From NCBI GenBank assembly GCA_028684065.1, contig JAQUGO010000001.1, positions 186,001-250,000 of the forward strand: a stretch of 64,000 nucleotides of DNA, in the 5' to 3' direction. Positions 8,068 to 52,980 of the stretch are shown here, one piece after another. The translations under genes and the position numbers were made by a program. The notes under the pieces were generated by a model. That model saw nothing but the letters and a program-made list of their open reading frames with translations. It was not told where the DNA came from and searched no databases. Numbering within the stretch: position 1 is the first letter of the stretch; each line of letters begins with the position of its first letter. The stretch is from Sulfurospirillaceae bacterium (GTDB lineage Bacteria > Campylobacterota > Campylobacteria > Campylobacterales > Sulfurospirillaceae).

Positions 8068-10242
8068 ATGATGACTCATACTTTATCAAACCTTATTAAA
8101 ACAGAATATTTAAAGTCGATTATTTTCCCTTTAGTAGTAATCGAATCAATGTTGCTTATGGCCTATTTTTGGAGTAATTCTTTTGTCAATGATGTTACTA
8201 AAAATGCACTTATTGTGGAAACAAAAGCTAATATTAAAGAAATTAGTCAACACTCTGCAAATGTTATTAATAGTGAATTTATATCCATTGCAAACGTTAC
8301 TTCTTTATTTCAAAAAGAGCATGAAAACTTTTTTAGTAATTATGATCCATCACAAGTAAAGCTGACGGATAGTTTCTATACACAAATGGCGGATGGTGTT
8401 ATTTTGAACAAACCTCGTGACAAAAATTCTTGTTCACTTTTCTTTTCCAATGCAGAACAAAATAGCCCTAACAGAATGGCTAAAGCAATCGCTTCAGAAA
8501 AATTGGACTACTTCTACAATGCTGCACTAAAAACAAATTCAAATATTGCACAACTCTACTTCAATAGTTATGATTCTATGAATCGACTCTGTCCTTTTAT
8601 GACCGATGCCTCAGCCCAATACGACCACAATATAAATATTCCTATCTTTAATTTCTATTTTGAAGCTGATTTAGCACATAACCCTGAAAAAAAGGTTGTA
8701 TGGACCGATGCTTATTTGGATCCTGCAGGGCTCGGTTGGATGATAAGTGCCATTGCACCTGTGTATAAAGGTGACTTTTTAGAAGGTGTAGTGGGTGTCG
8801 ATGTGACCATCGATAAATTAATACACACTATTTTATCCATCAAGTTACCATACGTTTCAATGGCACTAATGGTAGATAAAAAAGGTAACATTCTTGCGAT
8901 GAATGGTGATTTGGAGCATGTTTTAGGGATAAAAGAGTTGAAAGAACACGAGTATAAAGAACCTGTTGCTCAAACGATTACTAAACCAAAAGATTTCAAT
9001 TTACTTGAAAACACTACCAATGCGCTAGCAATGCATTTAGCCAATTCCATAAAATTAAACTTACCTCTCACTGAATATAACAGTGAACAATCAAACTTTT
9101 TAGTAACACAAAATACTATCCAAGAAACAGGATGGAAACTTATTCTCTTACTGAATAAAGAATCCTTACTTGCATCAACCGTAGCTCTTAAAAATAAAAT
9201 TGATTTCATTGGTTACATTGCTATAGGCTTTATGGCTCTTTTTTACCTACTTTTTTTGGCTATCATTATCAAACGCTCCCGAAACTTTTCAAAGCTTATT
9301 TTAACACCATTGCATAACTTAGTCGATGCGACTAAAGACTTAAAAAGTACAATGACTATTCGCAAGTTAGAGCATTCGCATATTAGTGAAATAGATACCC
9401 TTCTTGATAATTTTACGTCAATGAGTCAAGAACTTCAAGAGTTATATGAATCTTTAGATAATAAAATTCGTGCTGGAATTTTGGAAAATATGGAAACACA
9501 AAAAGTCATGATTTATCAGTCTCGCCTTGCACAAATGGGTGAAATGATCAGTATGATAGCGCACCAATGGCGCCAACCGTTAGGCTCTATTTCAACCGTT
9601 ACCGCAGGTATTAAACTCAAGCAAAAACTTAAAAAATTCGATCTTGAAACACTTGATGGACGAAATGCACAGATAGAATATTTGAATACAGCCGTAGATA
9701 AAATTGAAAACTACATTCATTTTTTAACGACAACTATTGATGATTTTAGAAATTTTTTCAAACCAGATCAAGAGCAAGTCGAAACAACTATGAAAGAAAT
9801 TGTTGATCATGCTTTGAAAATTATCGGTAAAAGTTTAGAAGTACATAATATCACTGTTTTACGTCGTGATGAGTCCCTTAGACCTTTTCTAACCTATAGT
9901 ACACAAATGACACAGGTTCTTATTAATATTATTAAAAATGCACAAGATGCTCTTCTCGAGCACAAAGTCGAACATGGGCATCTTAGTATCCATTCATATG
10001 AAACTAATCAAACATTTATTCTTGAGATTGAAGACAATGCTGGCGGAATACCCGAAGAGATTATAGATAAAATTTTCGATCCTTATTTTTCAACCAAAAC
10101 GGATAAAAATGGAACAGGGCTTGGTCTTTATATGTCTAAAACTATTATTGAAGAGCATTGCCGTGGAATTCTTAAGGCGATAAACACAGAGAATGGGGTA
10201 AAATTTGTTATTACAATACGAGGGGACAGTCGTGCAGATTGA
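8068..10242 (+). CDS. membrane sensor histidine kinase with periplasmic dCache-type domain
   Basis: The 724-residue kinase has a membrane helix at about residues 19-38, a periplasmic region of about 330 residues, a second helix around 376-400, a HAMP-like linker, a coiled coil and a kinase core. The periplasmic part shows dCache features near WTDAYLDPAGLGWMISAIAP and GVVGVDVTIDKLI, the double-PAS fold that binds small metabolites. The phospho-acceptor is His499 in MISMIAHQWRQPLG. N, G1 and G2 boxes are present. It starts one base after the first kinase stops. The pair may sense a cytoplasmic and a periplasmic cue that feed the same regulators. Confidence 0.9.
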   Translation: MMTHTLSNLIKTEYLKSIIFPLVVIESMLLMAYFWSNSFVNDVTKNALIVETKANIKEISQHSANVINSEFISIANVTSLFQKEHENFFSNYDPSQVKLTDSFYTQMADGVILNKPRDKNSCSLFFSNAEQNSPNRMAKAIASEKLDYFYNAALKTNSNIAQLYFNSYDSMNRLCPFMTDASAQYDHNINIPIFNFYFEADLAHNPEKKVVWTDAYLDPAGLGWMISAIAPVYKGDFLEGVVGVDVTIDKLIHTILSIKLPYVSMALMVDKKGNILAMNGDLEHVLGIKELKEHEYKEPVAQTITKPKDFNLLENTTNALAMHLANSIKLNLPLTEYNSEQSNFLVTQNTIQETGWKLILLLNKESLLASTVALKNKIDFIGYIAIGFMALFYLLFLAIIIKRSRNFSKLILTPLHNLVDATKDLKSTMTIRKLEHSHISEIDTLLDNFTSMSQELQELYESLDNKIRAGILENMETQKVMIYQSRLAQMGEMISMIAHQWRQPLGSISTVTAGIKLKQKLKKFDLETLDGRNAQIEYLNTAVDKIENYIHFLTTTIDDFRNFFKPDQEQVETTMKEIVDHALKIIGKSLEVHNITVLRRDESLRPFLTYSTQMTQVLINIIKNAQDALLEHKVEHGHLSIHSYETNQTFILEIEDNAGGIPEEIIDKIFDPYFSTKTDKNGTGLGLYMSKTIIEEHCRGILKAINTENGVKFVITIRGDSRAD

Positions 10243-24132: not shown

Positions 24133-24684
24133 ATGAAATTTTTTTTAGTGACCTTTACCGCCATCAGTTTGCTGCTTTTTAGTGGCTGTTCTTCCGATAA
24201 AAAGCAGAGTGAAGATAAAAACACATCCATTCTTCAAGAAAATACAAAAAAAGAGCCTATAACTCTTACCGATATTGATGGACAATCTATTATAGTCACG
24301 CCAACGGCAAAAGGATATACTTTCTCTGGCTATGAAAACAAAGTCGTTTTGGTCAACTTTTTTGCGACATGGTGTCCTCCATGTAAAGCAGAAATTCCTC
24401 ACCTTAATAACTTACAAGACAAATATAAAGATAATTTTGCCATTATAAGCGTTTTACTCGAAGAAAATAAATCCAACGACGAAATTGCTAATTTTGTTAA
24501 ATATAATGCTATCAAGTACACGATTACCAATAGTCCTGAAAACTATAAATTTGCTAAAGCTGTTGGTGGAGTTAATAATATCCCTTTAATGTTTTTATAC
24601 GACAAAGAAGGAAACTACTCTACACATTATGTTGGTGCTATTCCTGAAGAGATGATTGATGCTGATATCAAAAAAGTTCTCTAA
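24133..24684 (+). CDS. TlpA/ResA-like thiol-disulfide lipoprotein
   Basis: The 183-residue protein has a lipoprotein signal with the lipobox LLFSGC, so Cys20 should be lipidated and the protein membrane-tethered in the periplasm. The thioredoxin-fold domain carries the active site ATWCPPCKAEIPHL and the cis-proline region NNIPLMFLYD. CPPC proteins of this class usually reduce disulfides, for example in cytochrome c maturation. It is 2 bp upstream of ftsY. One D-x-N-x-T/S sequon lies near the N-terminus. Confidence 0.88.
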   Translation: MKFFLVTFTAISLLLFSGCSSDKKQSEDKNTSILQENTKKEPITLTDIDGQSIIVTPTAKGYTFSGYENKVVLVNFFATWCPPCKAEIPHLNNLQDKYKDNFAIISVLLEENKSNDEIANFVKYNAIKYTITNSPENYKFAKAVGGVNNIPLMFLYDKEGNYSTHYVGAIPEEMIDADIKKVL

Positions 24685-34676: not shown

Positions 34677-35831
34677 CTATAAATCTTTAACAAAAACCAA
34701 ATCAAGGCCATTGAGCAACTCTTTAGAATCACGTAAAACTTCTAATGTATTTTTATGCGGATGGCCAATGGCAATAGCATATCCATGTTTTCGTGCCGTC
34801 TGAACAGCTTTTTTTAACTGCTCCGTAATATCCGCTTTATTTAAGGAATTATCTAAAAAAACATCACGCGATAAAAGTTGCATTTTATGTTGCCTAAATA
34901 TCTCTGGTGCTTTGCTATCAGGCGCTGTACGACTATCAACAAACATCAAATTCTCATTACGAAAAATGGTTAAAAGTTTTTCCATCGCTGCATAATTAGA
35001 GGTAAAATAGCCACCTGTATGGTTATTGTAATAGCTAATATGAGGGAACCATTTTTTAATGCGTTGGATTCGACGTACCATCACTTCAGAACTATCTACT
35101 ACATTGAGCGTATCCTCTTCTGGTCGCTTGTAATGTTTTGCCTCCAACGGAAGATGTATCATTGCAAAATCAAATTCATGTGAAAGCTTCACTGTTTCAG
35201 GATGCCCTGTTGTTGGTGGAAAAAATGCAGGTGTTATTTTATACGGAATCTCCTTCATCAATTTTGTCTGCCATGCAAAAGAAACATCATCAATAATAAT
35301 CGCAAGCTTAGGCGTTGTTCCAGGGGGATATTTTTTTCTTGTGACTTCACTGACTCTCTTGGTAGGAGATTTATTAACCTCTATGAGACTTGAAGAATAA
35401 TCACGAACTTCTGAAAGATCATGGTTTTTACTATTATCTTCTTGCTCGCCATTCGTATTGACAGCTTCTGTGCTTGTATTGACATCAATAACACTCTCTT
35501 TAGGCAATAAGCTTTGTGTTGTATTACGTTCGACATTTGGCTGAATAACATCAGGGGGAAGAGCAGGTAAAGATACCAATCTCTGCTTTTCATCATCCAG
35601 CATTTTTTTCATTTTATGCATAAGCTCATCCGTTGTTGTCTGCTGCTTTTGCTTTATTTTTTGATTTTGCTGATATGCTTCCATATACATATAAGCACTG
35701 ATTGACAACAAAGGAATAATCACTAAAATAACAAATACTATAATATAATTTTTGTAACTTTTTTGCTTTTGTGAGCTTTGTTTACGCGTCGTCTCTCGCT
35801 TTGGTTTTTTTTCTTTGATTCTTCTTGCCAT
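34677..35831 (-). CDS. divergent polysaccharide deacetylase-family protein (YibQ-like)
   Basis: The 384-residue protein has a basic cytoplasmic N-terminus, one membrane helix (about 28-50), a low-complexity linker and a deacetylase-like domain from residue 170. KLAIIIDDVSFAW, AMIHLPLEA and NNHTGGYFTSN, then MFVDSRTAPDS, are the landmarks of this divergent family. The metal ligands are partly retained. It should sit in the inner membrane with its domain in the periplasm. Function in peptidoglycan or polysaccharide processing is inferred only from the family. Confidence 0.82.
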   Translation of the reverse strand: MARRIKEKKPKRETTRKQSSQKQKSYKNYIIVFVILVIIPLLSISAYMYMEAYQQNQKIKQKQQTTTDELMHKMKKMLDDEKQRLVSLPALPPDVIQPNVERNTTQSLLPKESVIDVNTSTEAVNTNGEQEDNSKNHDLSEVRDYSSSLIEVNKSPTKRVSEVTRKKYPPGTTPKLAIIIDDVSFAWQTKLMKEIPYKITPAFFPPTTGHPETVKLSHEFDFAMIHLPLEAKHYKRPEEDTLNVVDSSEVMVRRIQRIKKWFPHISYYNNHTGGYFTSNYAAMEKLLTIFRNENLMFVDSRTAPDSKAPEIFRQHKMQLLSRDVFLDNSLNKADITEQLKKAVQTARKHGYAIAIGHPHKNTLEVLRDSKELLNGLDLVFVKDL

Positions 35832-47073: not shown

Positions 47074-50000
47074 ATGTTTAGTTTAAATGTTAATGTTTTT
47101 ATATTTTTTAAAATATTTGCAAAAATAAATTTTTTACTTGCACTTTTTTTGATTCTTTTTTGCTCAAGCATGAATTTACATGCCGGATGGCTCCAAAAAA
47201 ATGAACGCCCCTTTACACTTCGCAACACCAATGGAGTTACAGGAGATAACATTTATGGTGATTTCAATGTTACAGGTGCACCTATTTTGTGTGTCACTAA
47301 AACAAATGGCCAATGTGATTGGAATTATACAGGCATGCTTGCAACCGCTAATAGTAAATACCTTGTAGACAAACCAACCTCACAAATCCCATTAAACTCT
47401 TCCAGCGCAGATTTAACAATCCCCTCAGATGCAACTATTATCAAGGCATATTTGTACTGGAGTGGACATATTCATGGAAATACAGCAACGCAAACAGCGT
47501 ACAATGCTGCAATCGATGGATACAACAGTGTTATTTTTCGTACACCAGATGGCAATGACCATACCATTACTGCCAATATTAATGATACTACAAAAGTCAA
47601 TTATTATACCTATCTCAATGACACCATTAACACTAAAGGATTTCGACTTTTCTACCAAGCAACTGTCGATGTAACCGATATTGTTAAAAACGGCGGTTAT
47701 GCTTCCAATAAAAAACAATTTACTGTTGGTAATATTAAAGTTACAGCAGGGCCAGACCAAACACTCTATGAGCCTGAAATTAATGGAAATGTTGTATGGG
47801 GTCCAATGGGAGGGTGGTCTCTTGTAGTAGAATATACTAGACCTGTTGCTTCAGGACAAAAATATAAAAACGTTTCTATCTATGATGGATTTCAATTCTT
47901 ACTTCCACCGACCAATCAAACAGAATCTATAGATATTAATATTAGTGGTTTTTTAACACCTTTGACACAAGTTCCAACAGGTTCAATGGCATTTTATGCC
48001 ATGGGTTCAGAAAAAAAACTAACTGGTGAAAAAGTTAAACTTTCTAATAAAGCTGGCATTCTCCAAGATGTTTATAATAGCATTAACCCTGTTGGAGAAT
48101 TTCTTAATGATTCAATTTCCATTTTTGGCACAAATCTAGATGCTACTCGTATTTTTAATCCTGGAATAGACTTAGATGTTTTCAATATCGCAACAAGTTG
48201 TAAAAATAGCAGTGGTGCAACTGTAGCATGTATTGATACCAATCAAACCAGTACCACTTTACAGCTTAGTGTAAAGAATACGAATAACACAAGTGATCAA
48301 TCATTCCCTGGTATGATAGCTTTCTCTGTTGACATCTATCAGCCAAATATCAGCTCATTTAGAAAAGACTCAAATACAAGTGTTACCCAAATTCTCTACC
48401 CAAACGATTCTGTAGAATATACTTTAGACTTGAATAATTCAGGAACTGAAGCAGCAGAAAACATTACTATTTTTGATACTTTTTCATCTACCGTTGGTAG
48501 CGACATGCTTTTAGATTTGATTGATAGAAACGCAACAGCTATCAAAAACAGTATTCGCCTTAAATCATATTCAGAAGCAAATTACCATTGTGCGATTGGT
48601 TCTACTGATCCAGCGTGCGCTACATTAGCTCAAGATGCAAACTGCTCTGTTGATTATGCCGATAATAATATATCGCAAGCAACTAAAGTATGGTGTAATG
48701 TTCCTTATATGGCTGTTAATGCAAGAGAACTAATGAAATTTTCTATTACTATACGCAATGATTACAATCAGACTTTAGCAGACCAAAATGTTACCAATGT
48801 CGCTTATGCAGAATATTACAATGCAGCAACTCATGAAAAAATATCTGTTCTTGGGCAAAGTAATATTAATACAGCTGGAACGATAGGTGGACTACTGTCC
48901 TATAATTCATTACTTGACGTCGTTGACAATTATGATAACACCTACAATTATAATGCCTTAGTTGGACTAAAAACAAAAATCGCTAATTCTACAAATAAAA
49001 CTCTTGAAGCCGTATATTTAGGGAGTGATCCTACAAATCCTATTCCATCTTTGTATATTGGGCCAACCTATGACATGTTGGTTCTCTTTAGATTATCAAA
49101 TGATACGTGTACAGAAGATTTACCCATTAGTAGCACAGGGGATGTTACAACTACTTTTGTTGCTGGAGCAAACCAATATACATCCGTATCAAATGCCTTT
49201 ACATTGGTCAATCAAGCAAAAAAAGTTTCTAAGATAAAAACACATTTTATTGATTGGAATAAAATATCCCTTAATTTAATAGGAAATAACTGTGTCAATA
49301 ATAGCAGTATTTTGGGCAATCTTAAGGGAGTACCTCAATGTGTCAATGGGAACGAAGATAAAATACAAAATCTTATGACCGTTGATGTTACAGAATGTAT
49401 TACAGCCCCAGTGGGTAAAGATGCAGCGTGTTATTCTGAAGCCTATAATTCTAGTGGTAGTAAAGGGAATATTTACCCACCAAAATACAATAATACGTAT
49501 GGATGTTTAATGTGCTTATCAGACAAAGTTAATGGTACGAATAATTGTTCGCGTGACAATTTTGCCATTCGCCCTAATGATTTTAACAGTAGCATCAGTG
49601 CTAATCAACTTTTTGTAGCCGAACAAAATAATGCTATTACATTTAGAGCCAATCAATATGGCGGCATAGGAACACTTGATTATAATGAATCCATGAATAC
49701 TTCGTTTACTGTAGATATTAATATCAGTGATTCTAATAAAACATGTGTCAATCCTTCAATACAACTCAGTCCTAATATTGTTTTTGTAAATGGCTTAGTA
49801 ACAAATAATTATATGTTCTCCAATGTAGGTGATTTTAATTTGAGTATCCATGATATCAATGGTTCAGAATTCGCATTAATTGATGCAGATGACACTCCTG
49901 ATAATACCCGTTTTATCACACCTTTTGTACAACAGATTAAAGTGATACCATCTACCTTTCAAATAGATGGTAACTTTACAAATACAGCTAATAATTTTAC

Positions 50001-50949
50001 CTATCTATCCAATTTTGAAGCATTTCCTAACGCGGCAGACCGAAACATGTCAGCCAATTTGGATCTTAATATCTCTGCTCTTGGGGCCTTAAATACCATT
50101 ATGTCAAACTATACATCACAATGCTATGCTCAAGATGGCAATTTAACCGCAACATTAAACTCAGCATTGGTCATTAATCCCACTACAGCGCTAACGAAAG
50201 TTTTATGGTATGACAATCTCCATAGTCTTAATGGCAGTGTACCGCTAAATGGTACAACCTCTTACATTATGGATTTTAATCGTACCCAATTTGATAGTAA
50301 CGATGCCAATGGTACAGCTCATGTTAATTACCGTATTAATTTTGATCGAAATACTACAAAAACAGTAAAACCAATTCTTTTTAACCTAAATAATGTCCGA
50401 TTAACCGACGTAAACAGTGTTACGGGAGCCAAAATACTTAACCAAACAGCAACTTTTTACTACGGTCGTACCCATGCCCCAGACTATCGTTTTTCTGGTG
50501 TTACCAGTGGCTTAGCAACAATTTATTACGAAGTTTCTTGTAAAGACTGTAATCTTAGTGAACGTACTGCTTTTGGTATTACGGGCAATGAAAGTGTTGA
50601 TGCCATTGGCTGGTATCAAAATGTTTTACATGCGAATACAATGGGAACAGCTGCTCCTTCAACAATAAGTGCTAACATCACTGTTGGAGCACCAACACAT
50701 ACGGTTGATACCACAACAACCATCACTACAACAACTCTTCCAAATATTGGTAAAATTAATCTCAATGGAGCCAATTGGCTTGTACATTATCCTACAGATT
50801 TTACCGTTGAGTTTTTTGGTAGTGGGCAGTGGGCAGGATCGGGTTTTGTCAAACCAAATCAACCTAGTGCAACCGATACTAATACAACGGTGGGTGAGCA
50901 TGTTCATAAAACAGCACCAATAAGGTCTAATCGTAGGATAACATGGTGA
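47074..50949 (+). CDS. large secreted surface protein with DUF11-like region, rich in N-glycosylation sequons
   Basis: The 1291-residue protein has a signal peptide (about residues 12-38, ending LHA) and a strong AAAGGAGG ribosome site. An N-terminal beta-rich part includes AYLYWSG and GGWSLVVEYTRP. A DUF11-like repeat starts near residue 430 (NDSVEYTLDLNNSGTEAAENITIFD). Several cysteine-rich stretches follow, and the extreme C-terminus ends SNRRITW. By my count there are 26 D-x-N-x-S/T sites, the acceptor of PglB-type N-glycosylation. The stop overlaps the first pseudopilin gene. I infer a secreted or surface-displayed adhesin-like protein handled by the pseudopilins. No enzymatic motif was recognised. 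Confidence 0.75.
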   Translation: MFSLNVNVFIFFKIFAKINFLLALFLILFCSSMNLHAGWLQKNERPFTLRNTNGVTGDNIYGDFNVTGAPILCVTKTNGQCDWNYTGMLATANSKYLVDKPTSQIPLNSSSADLTIPSDATIIKAYLYWSGHIHGNTATQTAYNAAIDGYNSVIFRTPDGNDHTITANINDTTKVNYYTYLNDTINTKGFRLFYQATVDVTDIVKNGGYASNKKQFTVGNIKVTAGPDQTLYEPEINGNVVWGPMGGWSLVVEYTRPVASGQKYKNVSIYDGFQFLLPPTNQTESIDINISGFLTPLTQVPTGSMAFYAMGSEKKLTGEKVKLSNKAGILQDVYNSINPVGEFLNDSISIFGTNLDATRIFNPGIDLDVFNIATSCKNSSGATVACIDTNQTSTTLQLSVKNTNNTSDQSFPGMIAFSVDIYQPNISSFRKDSNTSVTQILYPNDSVEYTLDLNNSGTEAAENITIFDTFSSTVGSDMLLDLIDRNATAIKNSIRLKSYSEANYHCAIGSTDPACATLAQDANCSVDYADNNISQATKVWCNVPYMAVNARELMKFSITIRNDYNQTLADQNVTNVAYAEYYNAATHEKISVLGQSNINTAGTIGGLLSYNSLLDVVDNYDNTYNYNALVGLKTKIANSTNKTLEAVYLGSDPTNPIPSLYIGPTYDMLVLFRLSNDTCTEDLPISSTGDVTTTFVAGANQYTSVSNAFTLVNQAKKVSKIKTHFIDWNKISLNLIGNNCVNNSSILGNLKGVPQCVNGNEDKIQNLMTVDVTECITAPVGKDAACYSEAYNSSGSKGNIYPPKYNNTYGCLMCLSDKVNGTNNCSRDNFAIRPNDFNSSISANQLFVAEQNNAITFRANQYGGIGTLDYNESMNTSFTVDINISDSNKTCVNPSIQLSPNIVFVNGLVTNNYMFSNVGDFNLSIHDINGSEFALIDADDTPDNTRFITPFVQQIKVIPSTFQIDGNFTNTANNFTYLSNFEAFPNAADRNMSANLDLNISALGALNTIMSNYTSQCYAQDGNLTATLNSALVINPTTALTKVLWYDNLHSLNGSVPLNGTTSYIMDFNRTQFDSNDANGTAHVNYRINFDRNTTKTVKPILFNLNNVRLTDVNSVTGAKILNQTATFYYGRTHAPDYRFSGVTSGLATIYYEVSCKDCNLSERTAFGITGNESVDAIGWYQNVLHANTMGTAAPSTISANITVGAPTHTVDTTTTITTTTLPNIGKINLNGANWLVHYPTDFTVEFFGSGQWAGSGFVKPNQPSATDTNTTVGEHVHKTAPIRSNRRITW

Positions 50950-51626
50950 TTCGCAAAGCTTCCTCTATGATTGAACTGGTTATTGCTATTGTTGTAATGG
51001 GCATTGCTGTATCTGCTTTACCGATGATTTTAGTGCAAAGTCAGAACAATAATGCTTTAGCCCTGCAACAAGAAGTTATTTTAGCAACCAAAACAAAACT
51101 TGGCTATCTTTTATCCTATGAGTGGGATATAAATTCTTATGATAACAATGCAAGTGTTTCACGAGTTTTAGACACCAATGCTTCAACAAGTGCAAATTCA
51201 GCTTTTTACACTACGACCATAAGACGTATTGGACATATTTCTGCTGATAAAAGACGACGATTAAGAGATGATATGAAAGCACCAACGGTTGTTGGCAGTG
51301 CCAATTGGGGCAATATAGCACTCAGTGATCTGGATGATTTTAATGGCAAAAGTGAAACAACAACCGTTGTTTCAGCTGATATGGATTATATTTTTAATTT
51401 AGAACTAAACTCTACCGTTAGCTATATTTCAGATAGTCCAAGTTCGGGAACGTATAACAATCAAGATATTAATTTTACCTTCAATGCCAATAGCACTCCA
51501 GCTCATCCAACAAATATCAAAATGATTACAATTCGTACAGCCGATACTTCGCATAATGTCAATATCGTCTTACGTGCTTTCGCTTCTAATATAGGCGAAA
51601 GTGGTATTGCCAAAAGGGCGTGGTAA
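50943..51626 (+). CDS. minor pseudopilin, first of three (type II/IV prepilin)
   Basis: The 227-residue protein has a class III prepilin leader. Cleavage would fall after Ala6 in IRKA/SSMIELVIAI, leaving Glu at position 5 of the mature protein, then a 20-residue hydrophobic helix. The rest is a Ser/Thr/Asn-rich periplasmic domain with 4 D/E-x-N-x-S/T sites. The start overlaps the large protein's stop by 7 nt. Position and size suggest the GspI/PilV-like role in a minor-pseudopilin tip complex. Confidence 0.75.
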   Translation: MVIRKASSMIELVIAIVVMGIAVSALPMILVQSQNNNALALQQEVILATKTKLGYLLSYEWDINSYDNNASVSRVLDTNASTSANSAFYTTTIRRIGHISADKRRRLRDDMKAPTVVGSANWGNIALSDLDDFNGKSETTTVVSADMDYIFNLELNSTVSYISDSPSSGTYNNQDINFTFNANSTPAHPTNIKMITIRTADTSHNVNIVLRAFASNIGESGIAKRAW

Positions 51627-52522
51627 TGAGAAAAGCCTTCACAATGTTAGAACTCGTTATGGTGATGGTAGTTTTAGGTATTGTGGCTAGTATTGGTGCT
51701 GATATTATCGCATCTATGTACACAAGCTACCTTCGCACACGTACCGTCAATCGTTTAGAGTCTCAAACTGAAATCACGCTAGAACAAATTGCAAAAAGGT
51801 TGCAATATCGCATTAAAGAGAGCGTTATAGCTAGAAAAACTGGAGATTTTAAAGCATTGGCAGATTCTTTAAACGTTAATAGCACCTATGATATTCTAGA
51901 GTGGATAGGCTACAGCAATGAAAGTTTGTTAGGTACTCCCATCCCTGGATGGAGTGGCTTTATTGACCTTGATAGTAATGAAACAAACCGAACAAGTGGT
52001 ACATTAAAGACATCTGAAAGCAATCTAACAGAAGCGGCCTTGACCATTAATGCATTAACAGATTCAGCTATAGACATGACAACGGGTAAAGAAGCTGCTC
52101 TTATTTTTAAAGGTCAACCTTCTAATATTAATGATTTTGGCTGGGGGAATATAACAAATACTGATGGGACGAGTACTCTTAAAGTTAAAGTTGGTACAAC
52201 TGACGATACATTAGTCATAAGCAATGATACTCTCCCAACTGAAATTTTTGAACAATATTATCTTGCGCACAGTGCTTATGCTATTGTTCCGAGTGACACA
52301 AACTCAACTGATTTTAATCTAACACTGTATTACAACTATCAACCGTGGTTAGGGCAAGATTATAATACAAGTGGCTCACCTGCCCTCTTAGCGGAACATG
52401 CAAGCCTTTTTCGTTTTAAACAAGATGAGTCTATTTTAAGGTTAAAGCTTTGTTTACACGATGCTAATCAAACAGGAGTTGGAGATTTTATTGTTGTCTG
52501 CAAAGAAAAGGTGGTTTACTAA
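51626..52522 (+). CDS. minor pseudopilin, second of three
   Basis: I start at the ATG 51626, which overlaps the previous stop as TAATG; an in-frame GTG lies two codons earlier. The 298-residue protein begins MRKA/FTMLELVMVMVVLGI, a textbook prepilin peptidase site with Phe1 and Glu5. The larger globular part resembles GspJ-type minor pseudopilins in size. Seven D/E-x-N-x-S/T sites are present, several overlapping or adjacent (DSNETNRT, DTNSTDFNLT). It is tightly coupled to both neighbours. Confidence 0.75.
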   Translation: MRKAFTMLELVMVMVVLGIVASIGADIIASMYTSYLRTRTVNRLESQTEITLEQIAKRLQYRIKESVIARKTGDFKALADSLNVNSTYDILEWIGYSNESLLGTPIPGWSGFIDLDSNETNRTSGTLKTSESNLTEAALTINALTDSAIDMTTGKEAALIFKGQPSNINDFGWGNITNTDGTSTLKVKVGTTDDTLVISNDTLPTEIFEQYYLAHSAYAIVPSDTNSTDFNLTLYYNYQPWLGQDYNTSGSPALLAEHASLFRFKQDESILRLKLCLHDANQTGVGDFIVVCKEKVVY

Positions 52523-52980
52523 TGCGTCAAGGATTTAGTATGATTACTGCTATTATCTTTATGATTTTAGTCGCAACCATTGGTGCATTATCACTGTCAC
52601 TTTCAAGTGTTTCTGTCAAACAAACTTCAGATCTTTATCTAAGAGAACAAGCAGAAATTTTAGTGCAAAGTGCAACAGAATATGCATTGCTCGCTATATC
52701 TGGGCATGATTTTTCTGCAAATTGTTTAAACACGATTAATGCAACCTATACCCCAGATGGAATAACAACTGCCTTTGATATCAATATTACAATGTATTAT
52801 CTTGGCAATGGACTACCCAATAACTGCCAAAAACCAAGTGGTTCGATTAATGCAATTTCAAGTAATATTGATACCAATGAATCAAATCTCACTGTTTTAA
52901 TTGATACCATTGTAACATCTACCGCGACTGCCTCAACAGAGCCCATTCGTATCCACCGTCGCACACTTCAAAAACCCTAA
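52522..52980 (+). CDS. minor pseudopilin, third of three, without Glu5 (GspK/PilX-like)
   Basis: The 152-residue protein starts with the prepilin-like leader MRQG/FSMITAIIFMILVATIGAL. Position 5 of the mature form is Thr instead of Glu, which is how GspK-type tip pseudopilins differ from the others. Three D/E-x-N-x-S/T sites occur in the periplasmic part. Its start shares an A with the previous stop (TAATG). It is the last gene of the locus. Confidence 0.72.
   Translation: MRQGFSMITAIIFMILVATIGALSLSLSSVSVKQTSDLYLREQAEILVQSATEYALLAISGHDFSANCLNTINATYTPDGITTAFDINITMYYLGNGLPNNCQKPSGSINAISSNIDTNESNLTVLIDTIVTSTATASTEPIRIHRRTLQKP

Follow-up and report, generated by a model that had tools for sequence, protein, structure and literature searches.

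A four-gene locus (positions 47074–52980, plus strand) in a 64,000-nucleotide stretch of DNA from a Sulfurospirillaceae bacterium (assembly GCA_028684065.1, contig JAQUGO010000001.1, positions 186,001 to 250,000; hereafter the window) encodes a large exported protein and three minor pilins in which the acidic N-glycosylation sequon D/E-x-N-x-S/T is heavily over-represented. Sequence and distribution make it probable that the locus specifies the tip complex of a mannose-sensitive hemagglutinin (MSHA)-type type IV pilus, N-glycosylated by PglB at many of these sequons. In 900 kb sampled from this genome (809 open reading frames, ORFs), sequon selection is almost confined to this locus and one other pilus locus, and the four-gene unit, consisting of a large immunoglobulin-like (Ig-like) protein and three minor pilins, recurs across Campylobacterota. 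Throughout a clade, selection thus appears to focus sequons of the PglB type on a probable pilus tip.

Acidic sequons at the locus and in the genome

The first gene (47074..50949, + strand) encodes an exported multidomain beta-sandwich protein of 1291 aa, a putative MshQ-like pilus-tip protein with a weak DUF11 match at residues 439–470. Three minor pilin genes follow on the same strand. The first (50943..51626, 227 aa) occupies a PilV/GspI-like position, third from last in the unit and conserved there, and its product has an N-terminal prepilin-like segment (N_methyl match E 0.021, under the cut-off). The next (51620..52522, 300 aa) stands in a PilW/GspJ/MshO-like position, and its TIGR02532 prepilin domain exceeds the cut-off. 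The last (52522..52980, 152 aa) is PilX/GspK-like, with a weak GspK match and, in its mature form, no Glu5; GspK, the tip pseudopilin, likewise lacks Glu at this position. The prepilin N termini of the PilV-like and PilX-like proteins are backed by weak models and by conservation of the N termini across homologues.

Sequons were counted exactly from the translations, with proline disallowed at x. The large protein contains 26, all with Asp, and PilV, PilW and PilX contain 4 (3 with Asp), 7 (5 with Asp) and 3 (2 with Asp), an exact match to the initial annotation of the locus, which had counted 26 (all Asp), 4, 7 and 3 by eye. Composition-matched shuffles, proposed there as a check, give means of 2.14, 0.34, 0.31 and 0.19; for none of the four proteins does any of the 300 shuffles attain the observed count. 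When the large protein is shuffled within 20-residue windows, the mean is 2.27 and the maximum 9 in 2000 shuffles, against 26 observed. The global and local shuffles rule out chance and composition as the cause. Among the 8000 triplets of the form a-x-b-x-c, DxNxS and DxNxT (13 each) take the top two ranks for over-representation in the large protein, where 26 of the 30 D-x-N are followed by x-S/T and the reversed motif [ST]xNx[DE] occurs once. Expansion of a repeat is likewise ruled out: the 26 sequons comprise 25 distinct pentapeptides, the 26 surrounding 15-mers all differ, and serine is drawn from both codon families, so the sequons arose many times. Non-acidic N-x-S/T shows no excess in the four proteins (33 vs 33.6 expected).

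Across the genome sample, the window locus and its four-gene paralogue on contig C5 together hold 65 sequons, whereas 5.7 are expected. All remaining sampled ORFs hold 178 against an expectation of 172.8. A general enrichment of the secretome is not seen in the sample: the remaining ORFs with an N-terminal hydrophobic segment carry 30 sequons vs 26.8 expected. With the rest of the sampled proteome approximately at chance, the excess therefore sits on the two pilus loci. The data suggest that the PglB of this genome serves mainly to coat one structure.

PglB and the distribution of the unit

The initial annotation had also proposed looking for a pgl locus in the genome, with the absence of pglB as a refutation; a PglB with the catalytic and Asp-selecting residues is indeed encoded. 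The genome encodes one STT3 protein, on contig C3, with PF02516 above the cut-off; it aligns over its full length to the C. lari PglB of known structure (E 3e-165) and retains WWDYG, M-x-x-I, E312 (equivalent to Glu319) and R324 (equivalent to Arg331), while its score against NF050801 is 649, under the cut-off of 1300. Immediately upstream of pglB, where the contig starts, is a UDP-sugar 4,6-dehydratase-like gene. Arg331 has been proposed to bind the Asp at −2, with the caution that it does not alone determine the acidic rule (PMC4894442). PglB homologues are known from Campylobacter, Sulfurovum, Nitratiruptor and others (PMC7313396, PMC4894442), and our literature search found no study of Sulfurospirillum glycoproteins. 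The enzyme family, acidic sequon, catalytic motifs and R331/E319 equivalents are shared with the Campylobacter system. The latter, however, is a general one in C. jejuni, with 53 glycoproteins and two sequons each in CmeA, CmeB and CmeC (PMC6478998), whereas in the present genome sample only the two pilus loci show an excess and a single protein has 26. Archaeal AglB pilins and S-layers are similar in that surface filament or coat proteins bear many N-glycans, whose number in the S. acidocaldarius S-layer has been termed astonishingly high (PMC4287180); here, by contrast, the enzyme is bacterial with an acidic −2 rule, and the proteins are minor pilins and a tip protein.

A homologue of the large protein is found in 37 of 44 Sulfurospirillaceae genomes, and nearly all of the 37 carry the unit large–PilV–PilW–PilX, which comes in two types, A (that of the window) and B. 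Family-wide, the observed and expected sequons are 596/72 for the large protein, 120/11 for PilV, 189/14 for PilW and 114/5.5 for PilX (ratios of 8.2, 10.8, 13.6 and 20.6, respectively). This density is retained at about 30% identity while positions turn over, with 197 distinct sequon columns among 28 sequences of the large protein. A few pilin sites are widely shared: N88 and N122 of PilX are common to 32 and 25 of 35 homologues, and N233 and N283 of PilW to 23 of 36 each. In aligned cells, which are not phylogenetically independent, sequon Asn is retained in 61.5% vs 45% for other Asn, sequon Ser/Thr is also better kept than other Ser/Thr, and S–T swaps make up 36% of changes at +2 vs 21%.

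Two homologues of the large protein are giants: within the respective stretches, one exceeds 3200 aa and has 66 sequons (L056, G010:C1:998000-1016000), and the other exceeds 3700 aa and has 73 (L068, G002:C20:3000-22000). Just upstream of a pilin gene, a 131-aa ORF with three Asp sequons and no hydrophobic N terminus (L154:4718-5113, − strand) may be the C-terminal piece of a pilin that has been split.

Units with excess sequons are also present elsewhere in the order, in families f2, f3, f5, f6, f9, f15, f16, f18, f20 and f21, and in metagenome-assembled genomes (MAGs) labelled Sulfurimonas, Sulfurovum and Nitratiruptor. Over 13 sequon-rich loci, acidic sequons number 457 vs 46.7 expected, and non-acidic N-x-S/T 387 vs 410 expected; only the acidic sequons are in excess, and the signal therefore has the specificity of PglB. 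Among 299 genomes of the order, 184 have both STT3 and a strong PilW match (E below about 1e-15), 47 have STT3 only, 11 PilW only and 57 neither, an odds ratio of 20 that is not corrected for phylogeny.

Eleven PglB-negative genomes carry the unit, and in two of them it stands at or near chance. STT3/PglB was not detected in the genome G254 (f16 g20, in the same genus as the Sulfurimonas loci L224 and L229), where the four genes have 3, 1, 0 and 0 sequons vs 2.95 expected in sum; in six PglB-bearing congeners, the unit has 17–48 sequons and is approximately 5–10 fold enriched. G254 is thus a candidate natural loss of N-glycosylation. The second genome, G079, has 10, 0, 0 and 0 sequons, and its congener G145, which has PglB, 16, 5, 1 and 0. 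The inference of PglB glycosylation is strongly supported by the acidic-only selection together with the G254 case. The suggestion of the initial annotation that the locus may encode a heavily N-glycosylated secreted assembly gains support from both, and from the persistence of the excess throughout the clade.

Several Campylobacteraceae MAGs (L172, L173, L175, L181, L182, L189, L194 and L222) have the unit, mostly also PglB, and few acidic sequons. Non-acidic N-x-S/T is modestly raised in some of them (1.2–1.9x), and relaxed PglB specificity may lie behind these sequon-poor loci, although the R331 equivalent is mostly kept.

Probable identity of the assembly and alternative readings

The genome has two clusters, on contigs C5 and C2, each comprising an MshL secretin above the cut-off (TIGR02519, 253.1 and 260.8 bits, cut-off 250.2), an ATPase and GspF. 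One ATPase has an MshE-type cyclic di-GMP (c-di-GMP) domain (NF053729, 54.5 bits, cut-off 38). A type B unit lies directly upstream of the C5 machinery: at L037:4522-11009, a paralogous sequon-rich large protein and four pilin-like genes directly precede the MshL/MshE/GspF cluster. No minor pilins were found next to the C2 cluster. C2-type GspF is present in 41 of 44 genomes of the family and C5-type GspF in genomes with a type B unit. Given the lack of adjoining minor pilins at C2 and this distribution of GspF, the C2 machinery is the presumed partner of the window unit.

Structure prediction gives the large protein a tandem series of beta-sandwiches, with predicted local distance difference test scores (pLDDT) mostly >75 over residues 38–425 and 830–1180. 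Fold searches with two half-models returned generic beta-sandwich matches only, with low template modeling (TM) scores, and sequence searches of the PDB gave no match. Of 32 homologues of the C half of the large protein, 5 match DUF6701 (best 1e-23), the C-terminal domain of MshQ, and the domain exceeds its cut-off of 27 in L195 (53.5 bits) and L227 (30.8 bits). A DUF6701 protein beside minor pilins represents the MshQ arrangement. A tblastn search against plasmids with a DUF6701-bearing relative gave no match. In the MSHA system, MshQ has been called a putative adhesin (PMC7096442). The likeness to V. cholerae MSHA thus comprises a large protein with minor-pilin genes, MshL and an MshE-like ATPase, and DUF6701 in homologues; here, in contrast, the large gene comes first, the window locus lies away from the machinery, and the proteins are sequon-rich in PglB-bearing Campylobacterota. 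The GspI-J-K and PilV-W-X-PilY1 tips also have three minor pilins in the same order, a large partner and a PilX/GspK-like protein without Glu5. The large protein here is Ig-like with a DUF6701-related C half, whereas PilY1 folds as a propeller.

A second reading keeps the N-glycosylation but takes the assembly for a type II secretion pseudopilus or for a competence pilus, not an MSHA tip. This we consider unlikely. The minor pilins do have weak GspK, GspG and ComG-type matches, and the ATPases score against GspE as well as PilB; but both secretins, above the cut-off for MshL, fail those for GspD (149.7 and 175.2 bits, cut-off 351) and PilQ, no search having been aimed at other secretins, and the MshE-type ATPase domain and the DUF6701 homologues beside minor pilins both point to MSHA. 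The "pseudopilin locus" of the initial annotation is thus refined: the assembly is most likely an MSHA-type pilus tip, not the pseudopilus of a type II secretion system.

More improbable still is a structural origin of D-x-N-x-S/T unrelated to PglB, whether in the alternation of beta strands and turns or in metal-binding Ig-like loops. The models show the large protein as mostly beta strand, for which period-2 polar patterns are suitable, and place sequon Asn in loops no more commonly than other Asn (10/20 vs 46/79). However, neither the reversed motif nor other polar triplets of period 2 show a comparable enrichment, and three minor pilins, which differ in fold, carry the same excess. Following D-x-N-x, S/T stands at 508 of 691 places (137 expected) and N/D, expected at +2 for calcium loops, at 28 (123 expected), and a calcium-loop motif is rejected on these counts. 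Moreover, the unit persists without the motif in Campylobacter homologues and in G254, which is PglB-negative. Least probable of all, in our judgment, is that the sequons are relics of past selection, with glycosylation of the present-day proteins absent or partial. The turnover of positions in the large protein and the Campylobacter-type homologues without excess would suit such a history, but relics should have decayed toward chance at 30% identity, conservation is higher at sequon residues than at matched ones, and PglB is intact in this genome.

Several observations weigh against a PglB-glycosylated MSHA-type tip. Pilus machinery was not found adjacent to the window locus, whose neighbors are fliW and a 171-aa gene resembling a ribosome hibernation factor, and the window large protein itself does not match DUF6701. 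Nine of the 11 unit-bearing PglB-negative genomes are sequon-rich despite the lack of detected PglB. In G028, hisH, which adjoins pglB in the sister genome G014, is also missing from the assembly, and the absence of PglB is therefore attributed to an assembly gap; in G040, hisH lies 1.8 kb from a contig end. The remaining sequon-rich PglB-negative drafts are assumed to have such gaps too, the evidence for a gap coming from G028 only. Conversely, PglB-positive but sequon-poor cases include the Campylobacter-type f10, C. showae (L221) and the MAGs L172, L175 and L222. Campylobacter-type large proteins have 0 sequons in 1346 aa (G237), 0 in 1239 aa (G175) and 1 in 1312 aa (C. showae). PglB is therefore not sufficient for the excess, and neither the fold nor the retention of the locus depends on the sequons.

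Proposed role of the sequons and further candidates

Under the proposed glycosylation of an MSHA-type tip, all four proteins would be exported across the inner membrane and the prepilins processed. Periplasmic PglB would then modify many of the D/E-x-N-x-S/T sites before passage through the MshL secretin. Homology and gene order suggest that the large Ig-like surface or adhesin protein and the three minor pilins would form the tip, with the minor pilins priming and capping the filament and the large protein placed on top of them. The retention of density while sites turn over suggests a coat rather than single-site regulation: the selected trait would be the glycan coat and not any one site, with a few sites fixed in PilW and PilX. 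The likely role of such a coat would be stability, protection from proteases or phages, or an adhesive tip surface.

Why bacteria keep N-glycosylation is hard to read from C. jejuni, where the targets are many and heterogeneous. Here, selection points to one assembly, with an approximately tenfold excess in probable pilus-tip proteins of this genome, of most of the relatives covered and of many families, and chance levels elsewhere in the sample. The purpose of N-glycosylation thereby becomes testable in environmental Sulfurospirillum or Sulfurimonas, and candidate acceptor proteins with 20 to 70 sites become available for study. A heavily glycosylated tip, if true, also raises the question of its passage through the secretin. 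It is conceivable, although we regard it as rather doubtful, that N-glycosylation in many Campylobacterota has been selected chiefly for the MSHA-type pilus tip, and that its general use in Campylobacter, where the corresponding pilus locus has no additional sequons, is derived or secondary.

Outside the pilus loci, the initial annotation put the other exported proteins that it had checked in the window at none or one sequon. Three exported-looking ORFs of the window carry more, although such proteins stand at chance over the 900-kb sample. A TlpA/ResA-like thioredoxin-fold protein (24133-24684) and a divergent polysaccharide deacetylase (34677-35831) have three sequons each (0.2–0.4 expected), and the ORF at 8068-10242 has two. 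Among non-pilus proteins of the genome sample, the leading glycoprotein candidate is an 854-aa AsmA-looking protein (L125:4291-6855, + strand, the same as C13:4291-6855), which has eight D-x-N-x-S/T sequons vs 1.1 expected.

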